In this document: positions 1,490-23,999 of the stretch, in pieces
How positions within the stretch are numbered: position 1 is the first letter of the stretch
Layout of the letters: each line of letters opens with the position of its first letter
IMG/VR virus record: IMGVR_UViG_3300035698_016908
Span: 1-32,544 of that record
Direction: 5' to 3' (one strand)
DNA length: 32,544 nt
DNA from: a virus
Made by a program: the position numbers and the translations under genes
Notes under the pieces: model-generated
Databases searched by the model: none
Told to the model about the DNA's origin: nothing
The model's input: the letters and a program-made list of their open reading frames with translations, nothing else

Positions 1490-1855
1490 TTAAATTAATT
1501 TTAGCTGTTCTTTCAAGTCATTGTAGATGGATTCAATATCGCTTGGCAATAACTTCAAGACCGAGTTTGAGATTAGGTTTAGTGCATTGTATCTTTTGCG
1601 CCCCATGATCCTCATAAATATTGCTTTCTTTTTCTCCGGATGAGTGTCTATGAAGTCATGGCACGATCTACATCCACCGAATAAAGCACAAGGATTCCAA
1701 CGTGTAGATAGGTTACCGCGTCCAAAGACGTGCATCGGGTCATCTGTTATGCCAGTACAACCTTCGAGCTTTAAACGGCAATATGGATCACGAGTTGTAA
1801 TGATCGATGCCGTAATCCTGTCACATCTATCGATAATTGGTTTTAGCTTATTCAT
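1490..1855 (-). CDS. HNH/NinG-like nuclease, 121 aa
   Basis: The pattern matches small phage NinG/HNH proteins, which act on branched or duplex DNA during recombination or packaging. Visible residues are Cys26 and Cys33, then MHVFGRGNLSTRWNP (residues 41-55), where the His plus the Thr-Arg-Trp-Asn-Pro block is typical of the fold, and then CRSCHDF (62-68) with the second Cys pair and a His. The family often has an Asn after WNP; here Cys-Ala follow, so the active site is not a perfect match. The ATG overlaps the upstream small membrane gene by 8 nt. The neighbouring NinB-like gene supports a recombination role. Confidence 0.7.
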   Translation of the reverse strand: MNKLKPIIDRCDRITASIITTRDPYCRLKLEGCTGITDDPMHVFGRGNLSTRWNPCALFGGCRSCHDFIDTHPEKKKAIFMRIMGRKRYNALNLISNSVLKLLPSDIESIYNDLKEQLKLI

Positions 1856-3285: not shown

Positions 3286-5442
3286 TTAGTACATAAAACA
3301 TTGAATCCTAGCCGGTTCACGCATCTCCGGCGATCTAAATAGCGCGTCTCCTTTTCCGCTTAATTTCTCGGCCCCCTCCTCGTCTAACATAACCTTGGAG
3401 TCAGCACCGGAGGCAACCAATAGGCATAAGCGAGTTGAAAAGTTAGCTTTGGCATCACCGGTCATCACCTTCACGCTCCAACGCTGAGAGGAAAGCACAA
3501 TATGAATTCCTGCGGATCGAGCCTTTTGAGCGAGCAATAGTATGTTTTGCTCCAAGGTTTTAAAGTTCTCATCCTTTACAATTTTTGTCCTAAATTCTGG
3601 TATTTTATAATCTTCCCCACGAGCCATATACGGATCATAATCTTTATTCGGGCCGATAATCTCCTCGGTTTTTCTTATTTTTGTCTGACGAGTAAGGCAG
3701 TCACTCGCCTCGTCGAATATTATCAATTGCTTTGCCCCTGTACCGTTGGCCCCGCTTGCTTTATAAATTGCATCCATTTCCTCCACCTTTTTCTCAATAA
3801 AATCCTCGATTTTCCCTTGGTCGCTTACTACTTTAGCCCGCCCCTTGTACTCACCAAATTCAAATTTTGGATCGATGATTGACACCTGTACGCCCTTAAC
3901 TATAGCCGATTCAATGATCGTTTTAAGTGCGACGGACTTTCCGGAACCAGTTGCACCGGCAACAAGTAAATGCGGAGTGGATGGATTACCCATTTCCCAA
4001 AGTATAGGATTGTCGAAATTATCTCGGCCGATCGGTATTGAGTAATCACCTTTTTTAATCTCACTATTTCCGATCGTTAGAAATTTGCGCTTTTCCTTGT
4101 TTACTTCGATAGATAGGTAGGAGACGCCTTTATACGTTACGAGGTTTTTTGATATCCTCACGTCGGCGACTCCTACCGCGTTCGCAATGTCCATCTTGTA
4201 GCCTGCAATTGCGCTCATTTTAACGCCGGCCCCGATTTCTAATAAGTAGGTATCGCATGAGTAACCTCTGACCCTGTGGGCCACGCTACAAAGTACACCG
4301 AAACAAGAGAGGCGATGCTCGATCTTTTCGGCCGTTGACATATTTTCCATATCTTTAGAGTTAGATGATACAAAGCCACGTTGCTCTTTAAAAGCTCGGA
4401 TGACTGATTTCGGAACATTGGATATTTTAGAGCGCCGGATATCCGATCGACGCTTTTGTAGTATTTTTCTCGCGTTTGGTGTGAGGTTTGGGAATCCGTC
4501 TAATCCTTCGACCCGGGTCTTTACCCAAAAGTCGATCATCTCCTCTCCGTCGGTAAAATAATCGTTCGGATTCATTAGGTAAATATAGTCCGGATTCTGT
4601 ACGGCACTCAGCATCCTCCACACTCCTTCGAACAAGATCGCTTCGTACATCTCTTTCGTTTTGCTGATATCGATATCCACGCGCTTAATCTGGCGCTCTT
4701 TGTTCATGTTTTTAGTATATTTGTTCTCGTAATAGTAAAAGAACTTAACGCCCTCCTTGGCTTTTGGGTATTTCTTGATTAGGCTAGCCCACTCAGGACG
4801 CTCTATCATTGCCTTGGCCCCTGCTCCGTAAGCGGTGGACTGCAAGGATAGCCTTAGGGCAATCTCGCCCTTTTTCGTGTACATTTTTTTAGATTTGTGA
4901 TCCAATATACATAAATAACCGTCCTTATTAATAAAGACAATATCCGCGATCATTTTAATAGGGAGCGGAATATCTTGGCCATCGATCTCAATAAATTCGT
5001 GGATCGGCTTTTCGATCATTATAATTTCCTTGATTTCGTCCAGATAGCAATCCTTTTCTTGCATAAAATTCGTAACGGCAACGGCAAGGTACTTAAATGC
5101 CTCCGCTTTTTGTTGCTCAATCGTTTTTTTCTCGGTGGCCTTATATCTGTCGGCCCCAATCATTTCTAGCTCCTCCTTGGCGCATTGCATCATGATATCG
5201 TAATCGGCGATCTCTCCATCCTTATAAAGCTGAAAAAAGAACATGAGAGTCTTGTGGTACGCACTCCCAATAATCGCGGAGATCCCCATGTGTTTATCTC
5301 GGACTCGATAGATGTAATCTTTTTCAAAGGCTTTTTCGTTCCGTATAAATGAGGAGACGGCGCTGACTGACCAATGCTCTATCAAGTAGTTAGAGAAAAG
5401 CTCATCTAATTCGTCCGGTGATAATTTGGCAAATTGATTCAT
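3286..5442 (-). CDS. PD-(D/E)XK (RecB/Cas4-like) nuclease fused to FtsK-type DNA translocase, 718 aa
   Basis: Residues 1-300 look like a RecB/Cas4-type nuclease: GSAYHK (59-64), Asp167 in MIADIVF, the core DHK at 181-183, and QxxxY at 201-205. Residues 375-718 follow FtsK/SpoIIIE: a beta-domain segment (LEIGAGVKMSAI), Walker A GATGSGKS (496-503), Walker B LIIFDEAS (573-580), SSQRWSVKVMTGDAKANFSTR (651-671), and MLDEEGAEKLSGKGDALF (685-702), which matches the end of the motor. No membrane domain or KOPS-reading winged helix is present. The family logic predicts a hexameric pump that moves duplex DNA and cuts or resects it. It has its own promoter and lies directly downstream of the RecT-like unit. 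I know of no standard phage family with this order. Confidence 0.88.
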   Translation of the reverse strand: MNQFAKLSPDELDELFSNYLIEHWSVSAVSSFIRNEKAFEKDYIYRVRDKHMGISAIIGSAYHKTLMFFFQLYKDGEIADYDIMMQCAKEELEMIGADRYKATEKKTIEQQKAEAFKYLAVAVTNFMQEKDCYLDEIKEIIMIEKPIHEFIEIDGQDIPLPIKMIADIVFINKDGYLCILDHKSKKMYTKKGEIALRLSLQSTAYGAGAKAMIERPEWASLIKKYPKAKEGVKFFYYYENKYTKNMNKERQIKRVDIDISKTKEMYEAILFEGVWRMLSAVQNPDYIYLMNPNDYFTDGEEMIDFWVKTRVEGLDGFPNLTPNARKILQKRRSDIRRSKISNVPKSVIRAFKEQRGFVSSNSKDMENMSTAEKIEHRLSCFGVLCSVAHRVRGYSCDTYLLEIGAGVKMSAIAGYKMDIANAVGVADVRISKNLVTYKGVSYLSIEVNKEKRKFLTIGNSEIKKGDYSIPIGRDNFDNPILWEMGNPSTPHLLVAGATGSGKSVALKTIIESAIVKGVQVSIIDPKFEFGEYKGRAKVVSDQGKIEDFIEKKVEEMDAIYKASGANGTGAKQLIIFDEASDCLTRQTKIRKTEEIIGPNKDYDPYMARGEDYKIPEFRTKIVKDENFKTLEQNILLLAQKARSAGIHIVLSSQRWSVKVMTGDAKANFSTRLCLLVASGADSKVMLDEEGAEKLSGKGDALFRSPEMREPARIQCFMY

Positions 5443-5463: not shown

Positions 5464-5492
5464 ATACTAGCGGAAAGTCTGTACATTGTCAA
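5464..5492 (-). promoter_or_regulatory. Early promoter copy 1 (TTGACA-N17-TAGTAT)
   Basis: The -35 box TTGACA lies at 5487-5492, the spacer is 17 bp, and the -10 box TAGTAT is at 5464-5469. Transcription would start near 5457, giving a leader of about 15 nt for the nuclease-motor gene. The -35 overlaps the stop codon of the upstream gene. Confidence 0.75.
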
Positions 5493-5498
5493 GACTTT
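5474..5498. repeat. Operator-like dyad AAAGTCT-N11-AGACTTT, copy 1
   Basis: Perfect 7-bp arms (5474-5480, 5492-5498) flank the -35 and upstream spacer of the early promoter. The 11-bp centre, GTACATTGTCA, is shared with the other copies. A dimeric regulator bound here would block or contact RNA polymerase. Confidence 0.65.
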
Positions 5499-5893
5499 AT
5501 TTTTCTGATTTTAAATCCTGAAATACAAATCATCCGAACACGATCAGAAATTTCGATTTGTTCATCGGACTTGATTAGTCTTATTTTGAATTTAGTCATT
5601 TTTTCATTTAATTTTTCTAAACAATCTTTAAAGAGTAAGTCGCATAAATCATATATTTCAACCCCTCCCATTGAATCAAGGCAATCAATCACGCAATTTA
5701 CGGTGTACATTTCTTTACCGCACAAGAAATCTATCATATGGCCTATTGTGACTGATCTATAGGCTGATTTCCATGTTTCCTTAGTTGTATCTGATAAAGA
5801 TGGTAGAACATTCGGGCAAAGTCTGAATTTTTGTGCATCGTTTAACATTGACCATTGAAAGTTGCTGATATGTTGTCTAACAAATTTAGTCAT
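5489..5893 (-). CDS. Hypothetical protein, 134 aa
   Basis: No family recognised. It is Cys-rich (about seven Cys) without clear CxxC pairs, with a helical N-terminal half (FVRQHISNFQWSMLNDAQKF) and a C-terminal half rich in Lys, Ile and Asp. The start overlaps the RecT-like gene by 8 nt, so the two are probably co-translated; its product may be an accessory to annealing or resection. The stop falls inside the -35 of the next promoter. Confidence 0.7.
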   Translation of the reverse strand: MTKFVRQHISNFQWSMLNDAQKFRLCPNVLPSLSDTTKETWKSAYRSVTIGHMIDFLCGKEMYTVNCVIDCLDSMGGVEIYDLCDLLFKDCLEKLNEKMTKFKIRLIKSDEQIEISDRVRMICISGFKIRKIKS

Positions 5894-6962
5894 TAGATTT
5901 TTTGTTATTTCTTAATTGTTGTTTTTTGTCATTCACTGCGTCGATATTAGCATCGACCCCGGTCGCCATCTCCGGCGTGATCTCCTCGGCGCAATAATTA
6001 CACGGGCCAAGTATCTCAGGAATCTCCTGACGAGCGATGCGGGAGAGTCCAAAATATCGCATTTTAGACCTTCTATCAATTTTCATGGCATTACCGCTCA
6101 CTGTCTCGGCTTCGGCCAAGGTTACTTTGTATTCATAAGACTCTTGGTCTGGATCATTCAACTTTGTCACCGTAACCGTGACCCTATCCTCTTCGTAACC
6201 GGCTGGCTTTTGCACGTCAACCCCCGATAGTTTTTTTAAGTCACTCGCACTTTTTCCGCGTGTGCTTTTATAATCAAAATTACTAATTTCGTCAGTGTAT
6301 TTTATGCTATAACCGAATTTTCTAAACCTTTTTGCAAGCCCCTTACCCCATGGGGCAACTTGGCCGTACAGAATAACGAGATCACTCATTGCCTCCATTG
6401 GGCGGAGGCCCATCTCGCGACCGGCTTGCATTTTGACAAACACTTGCTCGACATTCCTACAGTCGGCCGTGAAACCTCCGGACTTAAAGAACTGCTCGGC
6501 CATCTTGTGCATAGAGTTAACAAGACCACCTTGCAAATCATAATCCATCGGTTGCTTTGGTATAAAAGCAAACGGATCTTTTATAATCGCCGGCGCCTGT
6601 GGTGTTTCTACTATCTCCGCCTCTGCCGGCTTTTCCGGTGGCGTTACGATCTCGGATTTTACCGGATCCTCAGATGTTGTTGCCTCGATACAGTTCGGAC
6701 AAAGTCCATCTTTAAAAGTTTCCTTTGGCATATCGGGGCCGGAAATGGCGCCGTCACGCTTGCAAGTAATCTCCTCGACCGGCTCCGCATCGTGGAAATT
6801 TTTGCAAACACAACAAACATCCAACTGATCGGTTACGCCGTCAGGCGTCTTGTTGGATATTGTTTCAATTGCCGTGTCCTTTTTACAGGTTTTGCACTTA
6901 TATAATTGTTCCGGTTTTTCCGGAGTTGTTTCCGCAGGATGCGGAGCGTTTTTTTCATCCAT
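5886..6962 (-). CDS. RecT-like single-strand annealing protein with N-terminal zinc ribbons, 358 aa
   Basis: The core (about residues 146-330) matches the RecT superfamily: QVFVKMQAGREMGLRPMEAM (173-192) corresponds to the family's KIQAGRELGLxPMxAM, followed by VILYGQVAPWGKGLA, a charged middle, and KMRYFGLSRIARQEIPE before the end. RecT proteins coat single-stranded DNA and anneal it to complementary strands. The N-terminal 95 residues are an unusual addition with cysteines at 23/26, 50/53, 67 and 88/91, probably one or two zinc ribbons, then a Pro/Glu linker (95-140). Another pair lies at 321/324. The nuclease partner is probably the fused nuclease-motor encoded next. A promoter copy lies about 80 nt upstream. 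Confidence 0.8.
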   Translation of the reverse strand: MDEKNAPHPAETTPEKPEQLYKCKTCKKDTAIETISNKTPDGVTDQLDVCCVCKNFHDAEPVEEITCKRDGAISGPDMPKETFKDGLCPNCIEATTSEDPVKSEIVTPPEKPAEAEIVETPQAPAIIKDPFAFIPKQPMDYDLQGGLVNSMHKMAEQFFKSGGFTADCRNVEQVFVKMQAGREMGLRPMEAMSDLVILYGQVAPWGKGLAKRFRKFGYSIKYTDEISNFDYKSTRGKSASDLKKLSGVDVQKPAGYEEDRVTVTVTKLNDPDQESYEYKVTLAEAETVSGNAMKIDRRSKMRYFGLSRIARQEIPEILGPCNYCAEEITPEMATGVDANIDAVNDKKQQLRNNKKSND

Positions 6963-20099: not shown

Positions 20100-23000
20100 T
20101 TAAATTATGAATAAGTTTCCACCTCTAGCAATAAGTGTTATTGAATCGTAGTTACCTGTAATGGTAGCTGTAGCTGCTCCGTCAATCGTTTCTGCTCCTT
20201 CTGTTGTAATTGTGATTGTCTGAGCTGCCGCATTACCACCTTCGTCTTTAATTATGAAGATTCTACCGTCAACGGCAATGTCTGCTGATTGAATCTCAAT
20301 AGTATCAGCTCCAACCGTATCACAACCGAAGTATAGTGACTCTGCATCACTGTCTGTAGCTGCTCCAACTGCTTCAGTAGGAAATACTAGACCACTTAAT
20401 ATCTTTACTGATCCGTTTACTCCACCACCAGATTGAGTACCACCAGCCAATGTTACATCTCCACCGTCTTGTGCTGAACCTCCAGTTATAGCTGTACCAC
20501 CTATTAGACTTACATCAAATCCGTCACCAGGGGCAACTGCTATTGCTGTAATATCATTATCAGCATTTACTGTTATGAAGTCGTAAAGCCATTCAGCAGA
20601 TATGTTTAAGGATGCAAACGCCGCCAAGGCCGCTGAACCATCTGTATTTCTTGTATCAGCCGCAACACCTACTAAGAATGTATTAGCCGCATCTGAACTT
20701 GAAGGGTCAACTGTAAATGAGCCAGCTGCACCGAAGTTACTTGCTGTTGTCAATCCTTCTGAATTGAATGTAGAAGTAAGTGTACTTGCGTTTAAGTTTC
20801 CAGCATAAGAACCCTCTACGTTTAGCGAATTTGCACCAGTTACATCTGGGTTGCCACTAGACCCATGCTCGATATTCATTGTATCAGTAGTCGGGGCGGT
20901 TAAATCATTCACTGTTAATTTACCTGTTATGGTTGTTAATCCATCACTATCAATTGTCATTCTACTAATTGAAGTTGCAGTACTATTTGGAGTAGTAAAA
21001 AAATCCAATTTAGTACCTTGGTTTGTTGCACTCCAAGCCTCAGTAGCATAACCATTTATTGAAGCACGTCCAATAAAACTAGAACCGCTATACCCAGCAA
21101 ACTGTATTCCACCTAATTGGTCGCCTGATTGAGTTGCTGCTGGACTTACTTCTGTACCTCTTGCCTTTCTAAGCTGCATATATGGATAATGATCTGTTGC
21201 TGTATTTTTATATGCTGTAATAAAATTACCAGTATATTCATCTTCCCCTGATATTTCTAAATTAACATCAGGACTATCTGTTCCTATACCTACTTTACCG
21301 TCTTCTCCGATTAACATTCTTTGCTCTATTGAAGTACTTCCGTCTGGAACGGTATAAAAAGCTAAATCAGTTCCATGCGCTATGTCCGTGAAATTTTCAG
21401 AAGCTATTATTTTCATGCCAGCTCCATCAAGCGCAAACCCTGTTGCTCCGTATCCTGAACCAAGCAAAGATAGTAGGGTATCACCTGATTGTGACGCTGT
21501 TGGTAAAGCTAAAGTACCTCTCGCATATGCTCCAGCAATGACAGGAGAATAAGCACCAGAAGCACTATTTTCGTATGAAACCATTGATAATATATTTGTG
21601 TCATTATCCTTAACAATCTGCAAAGGTGTTTGCGGACTATCCGTTCCAATTCCAATTTTCCCTCCAAAAATAGCATCATCATCGGAATAAACTTGCGTGT
21701 CTGTATCGGTATAATTTATCCAACCACTCTCTGTAATTACATCATCACCATTACTCAATGTAGTTTCTGTTAAGATGGTTCCGCCATTCTCCGCATGATT
21801 AATATAATCAATAACACTGATTGTATCCCAAGCAGAAGCAACGGCTCGTGCGCCAGCCTTACCATTCATATAAAAGACATGATGGACATTGCTTGCATTA
21901 TTCCCTGACCCGTATCTGGCAATCATATAAGCATTTTCCTCACCATACAGTGCTTTATCAGCATTTAAAAGTGTGGAGCTCATCACTGAAACGAAAGATG
22001 AACCAAGCGCTTTAATACAAGAATTATTCGTGTGGTCAATAGCATCAATCATACTTTGTGACGAGCTAAAATAAGAAGCTTGTGTTACAAATACCGCATA
22101 ATTTACATCTGCCTTTACCCTAGCCCCCCAAGATATAACACGTCCCCCACTGGTAATATACATCCCGTAGGCTGGGCTTCCGCCAGAGGTATTAAATACA
22201 TTTATTCCTTGGAGCCACGCGTAGGACTCGCCAAATCTTAAAATACTTGTGCTTGGAGCTGTCGTAGCGTCCAAAGTAATTCCTTGTAGAATAAATAGCG
22301 GACTTCCTGTTGTGTTTGAAACAACATTTAGTGCTGGCTCAGCTCCTTGAGATTTTATAATTACGCCAGGCGTAACAATGTCGAACTCTGTACCTGCTCC
22401 ATAGCCTCCTGAACTTGGCCGATACTCAACTGTCAAAGTGTCTGCCGTGTTGCTCTTGATCATGGCAAAATCTTCGATATCAGACCAAACGGCTGTCTTG
22501 TCTGTATACGCAGTACCTCCGGTAATATTAGCCATTTTGTCTGCAAACTCATTGATAGTCCACCCCGCGCCGGTTAACACAATTGTTGTTTGGCTTCCAC
22601 CCGTCGCGGTTAAACCGCTTTCTAATACTGTAAGCTCTCCATCAATCGCCATTACTGTCTCATCACTGTCACCGGATAGAACAGATAAAACGGTTTCCTC
22701 TTCATAAGTACCGGACGCTATATGTACGACGGTTTGATTTTCAATAAAATCCGGCACCTCGCTAAAACCCTTATTAATTGTCAGACACGGATTCCCGACC
22801 CTACAATCATTACTATCACTCCCGGTCGCGGCATCAACATAAATATCTAAAGTAGAAGTATTTTTGTTTAATGCCGATCCCCAGCTACCAAAATTAAAAT
22901 CCGAGGCTGTCATTTCTCCCGTAGTAGTCAAATTTGCACTTCCAAAGTCCCACGTTCCAGCCGGATCATTAAATATGATATCACCCTCATGTCCCCTGAG

Positions 23001-23999
23001 ATCAGCGGCAGTGACAGCTACGTTTGCTCTGTCAGCTAAATCGAAACCATAATCAATCGTTGCGTCCCGGACAGCAAAAGCAGAGCCGGCCGCTTTTGGA
23101 TAAAGAACCACTCCGTGATCGAGCTTTTGGTCTGTGCTTGAATGCGTATGTAGGGATGCAAGTGAGCTTTCTCCACCGCCGGCCATTGGCGAAAGTTGTT
23201 TGTAAAAAACCGATAGACCTGTGTTTTCTCCACCGCTATGGATTACTGTGCCATCCGCATCGTAATTTTTGATAGTTAAACCAGCAGTCGTTCCGGTATA
23301 TGTAGCACCGGCCCCCAGTGTTGATTTGATTAAATGACCCGCGCTTGCCCCGGCTGGCAACGTATCATCAACATCTAGCTTCGCGCTTACATTTACATCA
23401 CCGTCGGTTGTGGTCAAATCAATATCTCCTAGTGCTGAAATAATTCCTATGTTTCCGGTGTCGGCTATCATCCCAAAATTATCGCCAGTCATACTCATGG
23501 CAATTTGAGGATCGCCTGCCTGCGCCCCATTTATCATTAAAAAATCCCCAGAATCTAAAGTAGCTGTACCCATTGTTAAACCACCGTCCTCAATTACAAT
23601 GGAGCTTCCTGAAAGTGCATTAAATTCATTTGCGATCATTTTAAAATCATCGGCGCCACCTATTTCAAAGTCAATTTGATCGTCGATGTCAGCTTGTAAT
23701 GACGTATTCCCATCGGCATCCATCTTTATAATTTCCCCATTCATATCTATTCCGCCAACCCCAACGATTGCGGTAGCAACATCTATTTCATTATTCACAA
23801 TTAATTTATCGGTGTTTACTTCTGCGAGAGGCTGTGTCGTATTACCAATTTTATGTAACCATGAAGTGATTAACGCGTCTCCACTGGGGAGAAAGTATGC
23901 CTGATTTTCTTTATCCCCGGCAAATACGAGATTATTAAACAAAAACATGCCGATAATCAGCGATGCTAAAATTTTCTTATTTAATATTTTTTGTAACAT
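20100..23999 (-). CDS. Exported fibre/spike-like protein, 1299 aa
   Basis: A clear Sec signal peptide leads (MLQKILNKKILASLIIGMFL, cleavage after VFA near residue 27). Beta-rich repeats follow, including a parallel beta-helix-like part with DIYVDAATGSDSNDCRVGNP near residues 385-405 (DUF1565 style). Two similar modules come next, containing GIGTDSP and SQSGD/TQSGD blocks with FYTVPDGSTSIEQRMLIGED and FFTTPNSTATSISRMTIDSD. The end (GRIFIIKDEGGNAAAQTITI and NLFII) resembles trimerising fibre termini. No S74 chaperone is seen. It sits between capsid and connectors, odd for a tail fibre, and the signal peptide is odd for a virion protein. It could be an adhesin-like moron. Confidence 0.8.
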   Translation of the reverse strand: MLQKILNKKILASLIIGMFLFNNLVFAGDKENQAYFLPSGDALITSWLHKIGNTTQPLAEVNTDKLIVNNEIDVATAIVGVGGIDMNGEIIKMDADGNTSLQADIDDQIDFEIGGADDFKMIANEFNALSGSSIVIEDGGLTMGTATLDSGDFLMINGAQAGDPQIAMSMTGDNFGMIADTGNIGIISALGDIDLTTTDGDVNVSAKLDVDDTLPAGASAGHLIKSTLGAGATYTGTTAGLTIKNYDADGTVIHSGGENTGLSVFYKQLSPMAGGGESSLASLHTHSSTDQKLDHGVVLYPKAAGSAFAVRDATIDYGFDLADRANVAVTAADLRGHEGDIIFNDPAGTWDFGSANLTTTGEMTASDFNFGSWGSALNKNTSTLDIYVDAATGSDSNDCRVGNPCLTINKGFSEVPDFIENQTVVHIASGTYEEETVLSVLSGDSDETVMAIDGELTVLESGLTATGGSQTTIVLTGAGWTINEFADKMANITGGTAYTDKTAVWSDIEDFAMIKSNTADTLTVEYRPSSGGYGAGTEFDIVTPGVIIKSQGAEPALNVVSNTTGSPLFILQGITLDATTAPSTSILRFGESYAWLQGINVFNTSGGSPAYGMYITSGGRVISWGARVKADVNYAVFVTQASYFSSSQSMIDAIDHTNNSCIKALGSSFVSVMSSTLLNADKALYGEENAYMIARYGSGNNASNVHHVFYMNGKAGARAVASAWDTISVIDYINHAENGGTILTETTLSNGDDVITESGWINYTDTDTQVYSDDDAIFGGKIGIGTDSPQTPLQIVKDNDTNILSMVSYENSASGAYSPVIAGAYARGTLALPTASQSGDTLLSLLGSGYGATGFALDGAGMKIIASENFTDIAHGTDLAFYTVPDGSTSIEQRMLIGEDGKVGIGTDSPDVNLEISGEDEYTGNFITAYKNTATDHYPYMQLRKARGTEVSPAATQSGDQLGGIQFAGYSGSSFIGRASINGYATEAWSATNQGTKLDFFTTPNSTATSISRMTIDSDGLTTITGKLTVNDLTAPTTDTMNIEHGSSGNPDVTGANSLNVEGSYAGNLNASTLTSTFNSEGLTTASNFGAAGSFTVDPSSSDAANTFLVGVAADTRNTDGSAALAAFASLNISAEWLYDFITVNADNDITAIAVAPGDGFDVSLIGGTAITGGSAQDGGDVTLAGGTQSGGGVNGSVKILSGLVFPTEAVGAATDSDAESLYFGCDTVGADTIEIQSADIAVDGRIFIIKDEGGNAAAQTITITTEGAETIDGAATATITGNYDSITLIARGGNLFII

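Follow-up and report, generated by a model that had tools for sequence, protein, structure and literature searches.

The fusion of a nuclease to a DNA motor and the pairing of a single-strand annealing protein (SSAP) with an exonuclease are both known kinds of arrangement. RecB, AddA/B, AdnA, and Dna2 each join a nuclease to a helicase on one chain, and RecE- and lambda-type nucleases provide single-stranded DNA (ssDNA) to SSAPs. The resection motors known to us either unwind DNA (RecBCD, AddAB, and Dna2) or act as a separate HerA subunit. FtsK motors are hexamers that pump double-stranded DNA (dsDNA), and to our knowledge FtsK is a duplex pump with no record as an unwinding resection motor. 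Similarly, the SSAP-partner exonucleases that we know of, those of lambda Red and RecET, come without a motor, whereas the phage protein described here carries an FtsK translocase. In Deinococcus, pumping by HerA drives the digestion of the 5′ strand by NurA, leaving a 3′ ssDNA tail (PMC9960219), and in DndH an FtsK/HerA domain shares its chain with a restriction nuclease (PMC10853773).

The window that we analyzed, a stretch of 32,544 bp, is the virus record of a tailed phage, with genes for portal, minor head, SU10-type capsid, tape measure, tail, and amidase proteins, and it looks like a genome fragment. At 3286..5442, its minus strand encodes a nuclease-FtsK fusion protein of 718 amino acids (P0001) in a single uninterrupted open reading frame (ORF); an earlier, sequence-only reading of this gene had given no strand. 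Also on the minus strand are a phage peptide deformylase gene (641-1141; Pfam E value of 7.8e-25) and a 1,299-amino-acid tail-fibre-like ORF (20100-23999) with no Pfam or PHROG match. The fusion had been put forward as a novelty, which holds in part: a nuclease and a motor on one chain were already known, and the novelty lies in the union of a nuclease of RecB/RecE type with an FtsK pump within a phage SSAP module. We found no named phage family of this kind and no earlier description of the phage nuclease-FtsK-SSAP combination in the searchable literature, which leaves most subscription journals and preprints outside it.

A nuclease and an FtsK motor on one chain

The sequence-only reading had proposed a PD-(D/E)XK nuclease and an FtsK motor in one protein, and Pfam, NCBIfam, PHROG, and PDB searches all return this two-module layout, in agreement with the fold comparisons. 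The nuclease domain, of RecB/RecE/Cas4 type, spans residues 23 to 239 (4726..5376; all features of the gene are on the minus strand) as the Pfam family PDDEXK_1, with an E value of 6.7e-8 for the whole fusion protein and of 1.4e-8 for the N-terminal part alone, and its modeled core covers residues ∼1 to 284. It bears His63 of a GxxxH motif (5254..5256), Asp167 (4942..4944), the PD-(D/E)XK core D181-H182-K183 (4894..4902), and Gln201 of a QxxxY motif (4840..4842). A linker of low confidence in the structure model (residues ∼285 to 365; 4348..4590) leads to the FtsK alpha domain (FtsK_alpha, residues 360 to 447, E value of 8.7e-8; 4102..4365) and to the RecA-like beta motor (FtsK_SpoIIIE, from residue 467 to residue 718, E value of 8.6e-16; 3289..4044), the latter with the Walker A sequence GATGSGKS (residues 496 to 503; 3934..3957), the Walker B region with D577-E578 (residues 573 to 580; 3703..3726), and the FtsK signature GAEKL (residues 690 to 694; 3361..3375). 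The three Pfam matches exceed the gathering scores of their families, and FtsK motor domains in the PDB were matched over residues 370 to 713 (4.5e-34). The residues that the sequence-only reading had named, namely D167, D181-H-K183, Q201, Walker A, Walker B (ending in D577-E578), and GAEKL, were thus correctly placed.

Modeled alone with AF2, the nuclease half reached a pLDDT of 92.7 and a pTM of 0.88. Because its profile gave only weak matches to PDB sequences (best E value of 0.13), fold comparison was needed, and here the closest match was 3l0a, a putative exonuclease from Eubacterium (Z score of 16.8), followed by AdnA (16.4) and the Cas4-family protein ACE1 (15.2), and further by RecE and Dna2 (both 14.9) and AddB (14.6). 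Two alignments of the nuclease diverged too strongly to be scanned for patterns. In the predicted structure, a RecB-like nuclease fold is present in the N-terminal half, and the possibility that this half is not a PD-(D/E)XK domain is excluded by both profile and fold. The motor superposes on FtsK (2iut) with a Z score of 34.6 and an rmsd of 2.4 over 306 residues, with FtsK ranking ahead of TcpA, EccC, and HerA. The whole-chain model has a pTM of 0.51 and the linker is poorly predicted, and the relative placement of nuclease and motor is therefore without a confident model.

These modules set the phage protein apart from each of the systems that it resembles. It shares the alpha and beta parts of the motor with cellular FtsK and SpoIIIE but lacks both their N-terminal membrane domain, the N terminus being occupied by the nuclease, and their gamma (KOPS/XerD) domain, as the chain terminates at the last motor strand. 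With RecBCD, AddAB, and AdnAB, it has in common a nuclease fold linked on one chain to a DNA motor that serves end processing, but their motor is an SF1 unwinding helicase, whereas that of the phage protein belongs to the ring-forming dsDNA pumps. Further, the four conserved cysteines of the Fe-S nucleases AddB, AdnA, Cas4, and Dna2 are absent, with no cysteine in the alignment columns conserved at 90% or more. The HerA-NurA pair of archaea and some bacteria likewise combines a dsDNA pump of the FtsK/HerA superfamily with a nuclease and has been proposed to make recombinogenic 3′ tails (PMC9960219), yet it differs in that (i) HerA and NurA are separate proteins, whereas the phage fusion is one chain in 57 distinct members; (ii) the phage motor carries an FtsK alpha domain, belongs to the FtsK branch, and matches the fold of FtsK far better than that of HerA (Z score of 34.6 compared to ∼20); and (iii) the phage nuclease is of RecB/RecE type and is partnered with an SSAP. 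DndH, too, has a nuclease and an FtsK/HerA domain on one chain, and the SspH profile matches the phage motor, but DndH is a protein of ∼1,700 residues and eight domains with a restriction-type nuclease, encoded in phosphorothioate defense operons (PMC10853773), compared to ∼630 to 740 residues, two modules, and an exonuclease-class nuclease in phage SSAP operons.

Conservation and ancestry of the fused family

A single-sequence search of viral contigs gave no matches, and the family surfaced only with an FtsK-aligned profile. A profile scan of viral contigs yielded about 40 loci aligned along their full length, and a second scan with the nuclease half only added further loci, giving 57 distinct fused proteins after removal of copies, nearly all of them on contigs of uncultured phages. 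The same architecture thus exists in other phages, in homologues of ∼630 to 740 residues with ∼25 to 40% identity to the window protein, and since 57 distinct proteins share the fusion, a sequencing artefact can be rejected. Viral members found by the nuclease half all run into the motor, except where a contig end truncates them and at one locus (L031) discussed below. The nuclease half had no tblastn match among 50,697 phage records, and the phage and plasmid collections returned FtsK-motor matches only. Among these collections, six faecal records that we read (MT83xxxx, “Bacteriophage sp.”; L002-L007) encode a bacterial-type FtsK with long N-terminal extensions and are probably bacterial contigs inside a phage collection.

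Across 37 aligned full-length homologues, D167, D181, K183, K502, S503, D577, and E578 are invariant, as are S27, G59, H63, E144, the main Walker A and Walker B residues, Q653, and the GAE-L residues, whereas Q201 is conserved at 90% or more. The catalytic motifs of the nuclease agree across all 57 fused and 15 standalone sequences. Judged from these alignments, both the nuclease and the ATPase active sites are intact in every full-length member aligned. Pfam finds the FtsK alpha domain and the RecA-like beta motor in 37 of 37 members and lists the FtsK gamma family for none of them, and in the 51 proteins measured the chain ends 3 to 10 residues past the last conserved motor motif; the expectation that the motor has no KOPS-reading domain is therefore confirmed across the family. 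The stretch that follows Walker B (residues ∼583 to 635 of the window protein) and leads up to the next conserved motif is 13 to 95 residues long in the fused family, compared to ∼15 in cellular FtsK, and so amounts to a variable insertion. Regarding the nuclease, 35 of the 37 domains match the phrog_1218 exonuclease and 32 the phrog_69 exonuclease, with exonuclease VIII matched by two.

In a likelihood tree of 111 motors, a branch supported at 100/99 sets off all fused motors. The sole sequence labeled as unfused within this clade, L126, comes from a contig that keeps only the last part of the nuclease. By this tree, the fused motors are one clade, separate from all the unfused FtsK proteins sampled, and because they share this well-supported side of the tree, the phylogeny points to a single old fusion event behind the family.

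A standalone, motor-less form of the nuclease, mostly 270 to 310 amino acids long, is conserved in a single clade of Patescibacteria, on the chromosome and with housekeeping genes as neighbors (L135-L137 and L142-L153). We found it in 43 of 98 genomes in a set consisting of one Patescibacteria genome and its relatives, in 3 of 380 genomes across the Patescibacteria phylum besides the starting genome, and in none of 395 Bacteroidota genomes, apart from the phage contig of the starting genome. All 15 standalone nucleases examined keep the full set of catalytic residues, with up to 41% identity to the fused domains, and they lie across a fully supported branch from the fused nucleases. On the motor side, the FtsK of the same bacteria is not the closest relative of the fused motors. 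Four contigs of metagenome-assembled genomes with the fusion are labeled Collierbacteria, Patescibacteria, Fermentibacteria, and Bacteroidia, although these are binned whole phage contigs and thus weak host evidence. The hosts are possibly for the most part poorly known bacteria, Patescibacteria among them.

The apparent split of the fusion gene at L031 (5923-7950) is explained by in-frame TGA codons, of which the gene has two, with no TGG. A further 12 in-frame TGA codons occur at L174, across a stretch with the terminase gene of the same 48.5-kb phage contig. In this phage, TGA seems to be decoded as an amino acid, likely tryptophan, with glycine (code 25) as the alternative. As a separate observation, the terminase matches on three phage contigs (G971, G974, and G975, those of L025, L032, and L035) cross several in-frame TAG/TAA stops, which might reflect split genes, introns, or matches extended too far.

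Pairing with single-strand annealing proteins

The sequence-only reading had placed a RecT-like gene beside the fusion. The gene is real (5886..6962, minus strand, upstream of the fusion gene), although its kinship to RecT is distant and a 134-amino-acid ORF without family match (5489..5893, minus strand) sits between the two. The window SSAP is so divergent that only a relative, that of L026, ties it to the RecT-like families, with a BLASTP match of 3e-20 between the two and matches of the latter to the RecT-like phrog_561 and phrog_4171. The window protein also has an N-terminal extension of ∼100 residues, absent from L026, in which several CxxC pairs hint at zinc-binding modules. The same gene block holds a NinG/Rap-type recombination junction nuclease (1490..1855, minus strand; phrog_5034, E value of 1.2e-7). 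At other fused loci, the neighbors include DnaD-like helicase loaders and DNA methyltransferase/ParB-like proteins, as well as a cluster that by eye resembles RusA in sequence.

The pairing itself extends over the whole family. In each of the 54 fused loci for which upstream sequence exists, a RecT/Bet-type SSAP gene lies close by and in the same orientation, usually directly upstream of the fusion gene and mostly with overlapping stop-to-stop frames; in a minority of loci, other genes separate the two by up to ∼2.4 kb. With the same models, neither an SSAP nor this nuclease was found in the available flanks of 40 unfused-FtsK loci (0/40). The fused loci were also the source of the SSAP models, but for every SSAP type, representatives were independently confirmed by matches to PHROGs and to Pfam RecT. 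The SSAPs fall into at least four subfamilies, and at least seven changes of SSAP type are needed on the tree of the fusion, which is retained throughout. A pairing that outlasts the exchange of one partner is good evidence that fusion and SSAP form a working unit.

A candidate resection machine and its alternatives

Taken together with the invariant active sites, the presence of an SSAP at 54 of 54 fused loci compared to 0 of 40 unfused ones supports, at the level of sequence and gene context, the earlier suggestion of an end-resection role alongside the RecT-like protein. We consider it probable that the fusion is the exonuclease partner of the phage SSAP, equipped with a built-in dsDNA pump, and that it resects DNA ends. 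The recombination genes among its neighbors and the analogy with NurA-HerA of Deinococcus speak for the same reading. On dsDNA that is broken or offers a replication or incoming end, six or more fusion chains would close into a ring like that of FtsK. ATP-driven pumping would then bring the duplex to the nuclease domains tethered to this ring, and these would digest one strand processively. The leftover strand, probably 3′ ended, would be coated by the RecT-like protein and annealed to its complement, in the course of repair, concatemer formation, or replication that depends on recombination. As the fusion has no gamma domain, no KOPS-like steering or sequence-directed orientation is expected, and the direction of translocation would be set by the DNA end.

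One could also imagine an SSAP-partner nuclease in which resection is not motor driven and the FtsK ring serves only to load, anchor, or slide the nuclease to ends or to strip proteins, with digestion itself being ATP independent, as in lambda exonuclease or RecE. This is conceivable in that its relatives, the phrog_69 and phrog_1218 exonucleases and RecE, act alone, as do by their architecture the 15 standalone Patescibacteria homologues with retained catalytic residues, and in that the linker, being long and poorly predicted, might leave nuclease and motor uncoupled. However, nuclease and motor share a chain in every distinct member, their active sites are invariant, and viral sequences found by the nuclease half only also carry the motor or meet a contig end, and we regard this reading as unlikely.

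Still less probable is a weapon against DNA, by which the fusion would break down host or competitor DNA or serve as a phage-carried, restriction-like defense in the manner of DndH and SspH. These two are defense effectors and the closest known chains of an FtsK motor and an effector (PMC10853773, PMC8092258), and the PADLOC profile of SspH matches the phage motor. Yet the PADLOC matches are confined to the motor, with none on the nuclease domain, which is of the class of phage recombination exonucleases and not of restriction enzymes; no Dnd/Ssp-like modification genes were recognized next to the fused genes in the classes examined; and the SSAP pairing is without exception at the loci that have upstream sequence. 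The role in defense or host DNA breakdown that the sequence-only reading had also entertained thus finds no support in the gene context.

We hold it for very improbable that the fusion is a packaging or genome-end motor, a terminase substitute that cuts concatemers and fills heads, because separate canonical large terminases were found, with a single profile, in 17 of 30 contigs of fusion-bearing phages, and the fusion gene lies in a recombination block next to the SSAP and away from the portal, even though a nuclease and an ATPase on one chain are the layout of a terminase, FtsK/HerA ATPases package DNA in membrane-containing phages, one motor match of the window protein is to phrog_2666, named terminase, and no terL gene was recognized within the window, a fragment with the portal gene close to one end, outside which the terL of this phage may lie.

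Returning to resection by a pump-driven exonuclease, the phage protein resembles lambda Red and RecET in that an SSAP gene lies next to an exonuclease gene of the phrog_1218/phrog_69/RecE class. The chances seem to us about even that the family is a distinct and ancient phage resection class, in which a homo-oligomeric nuclease-FtsK ring pumps the duplex, trims one strand, and hands ssDNA to interchangeable SSAPs, and there is a fair chance that it would stand as a distinct class upon biochemistry. If true, a dsDNA pump would take the place of the helicase in a function like that of RecBCD, and one polypeptide would illustrate how resection can be powered by a dsDNA translocase, within a compact system of two genes, the fusion and its SSAP. 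Such an enzyme may be processive by design and pairs in nature with different SSAPs, so that it could serve recombineering. Further, the family offers a handle on recombination in the phages of uncultured bacteria.
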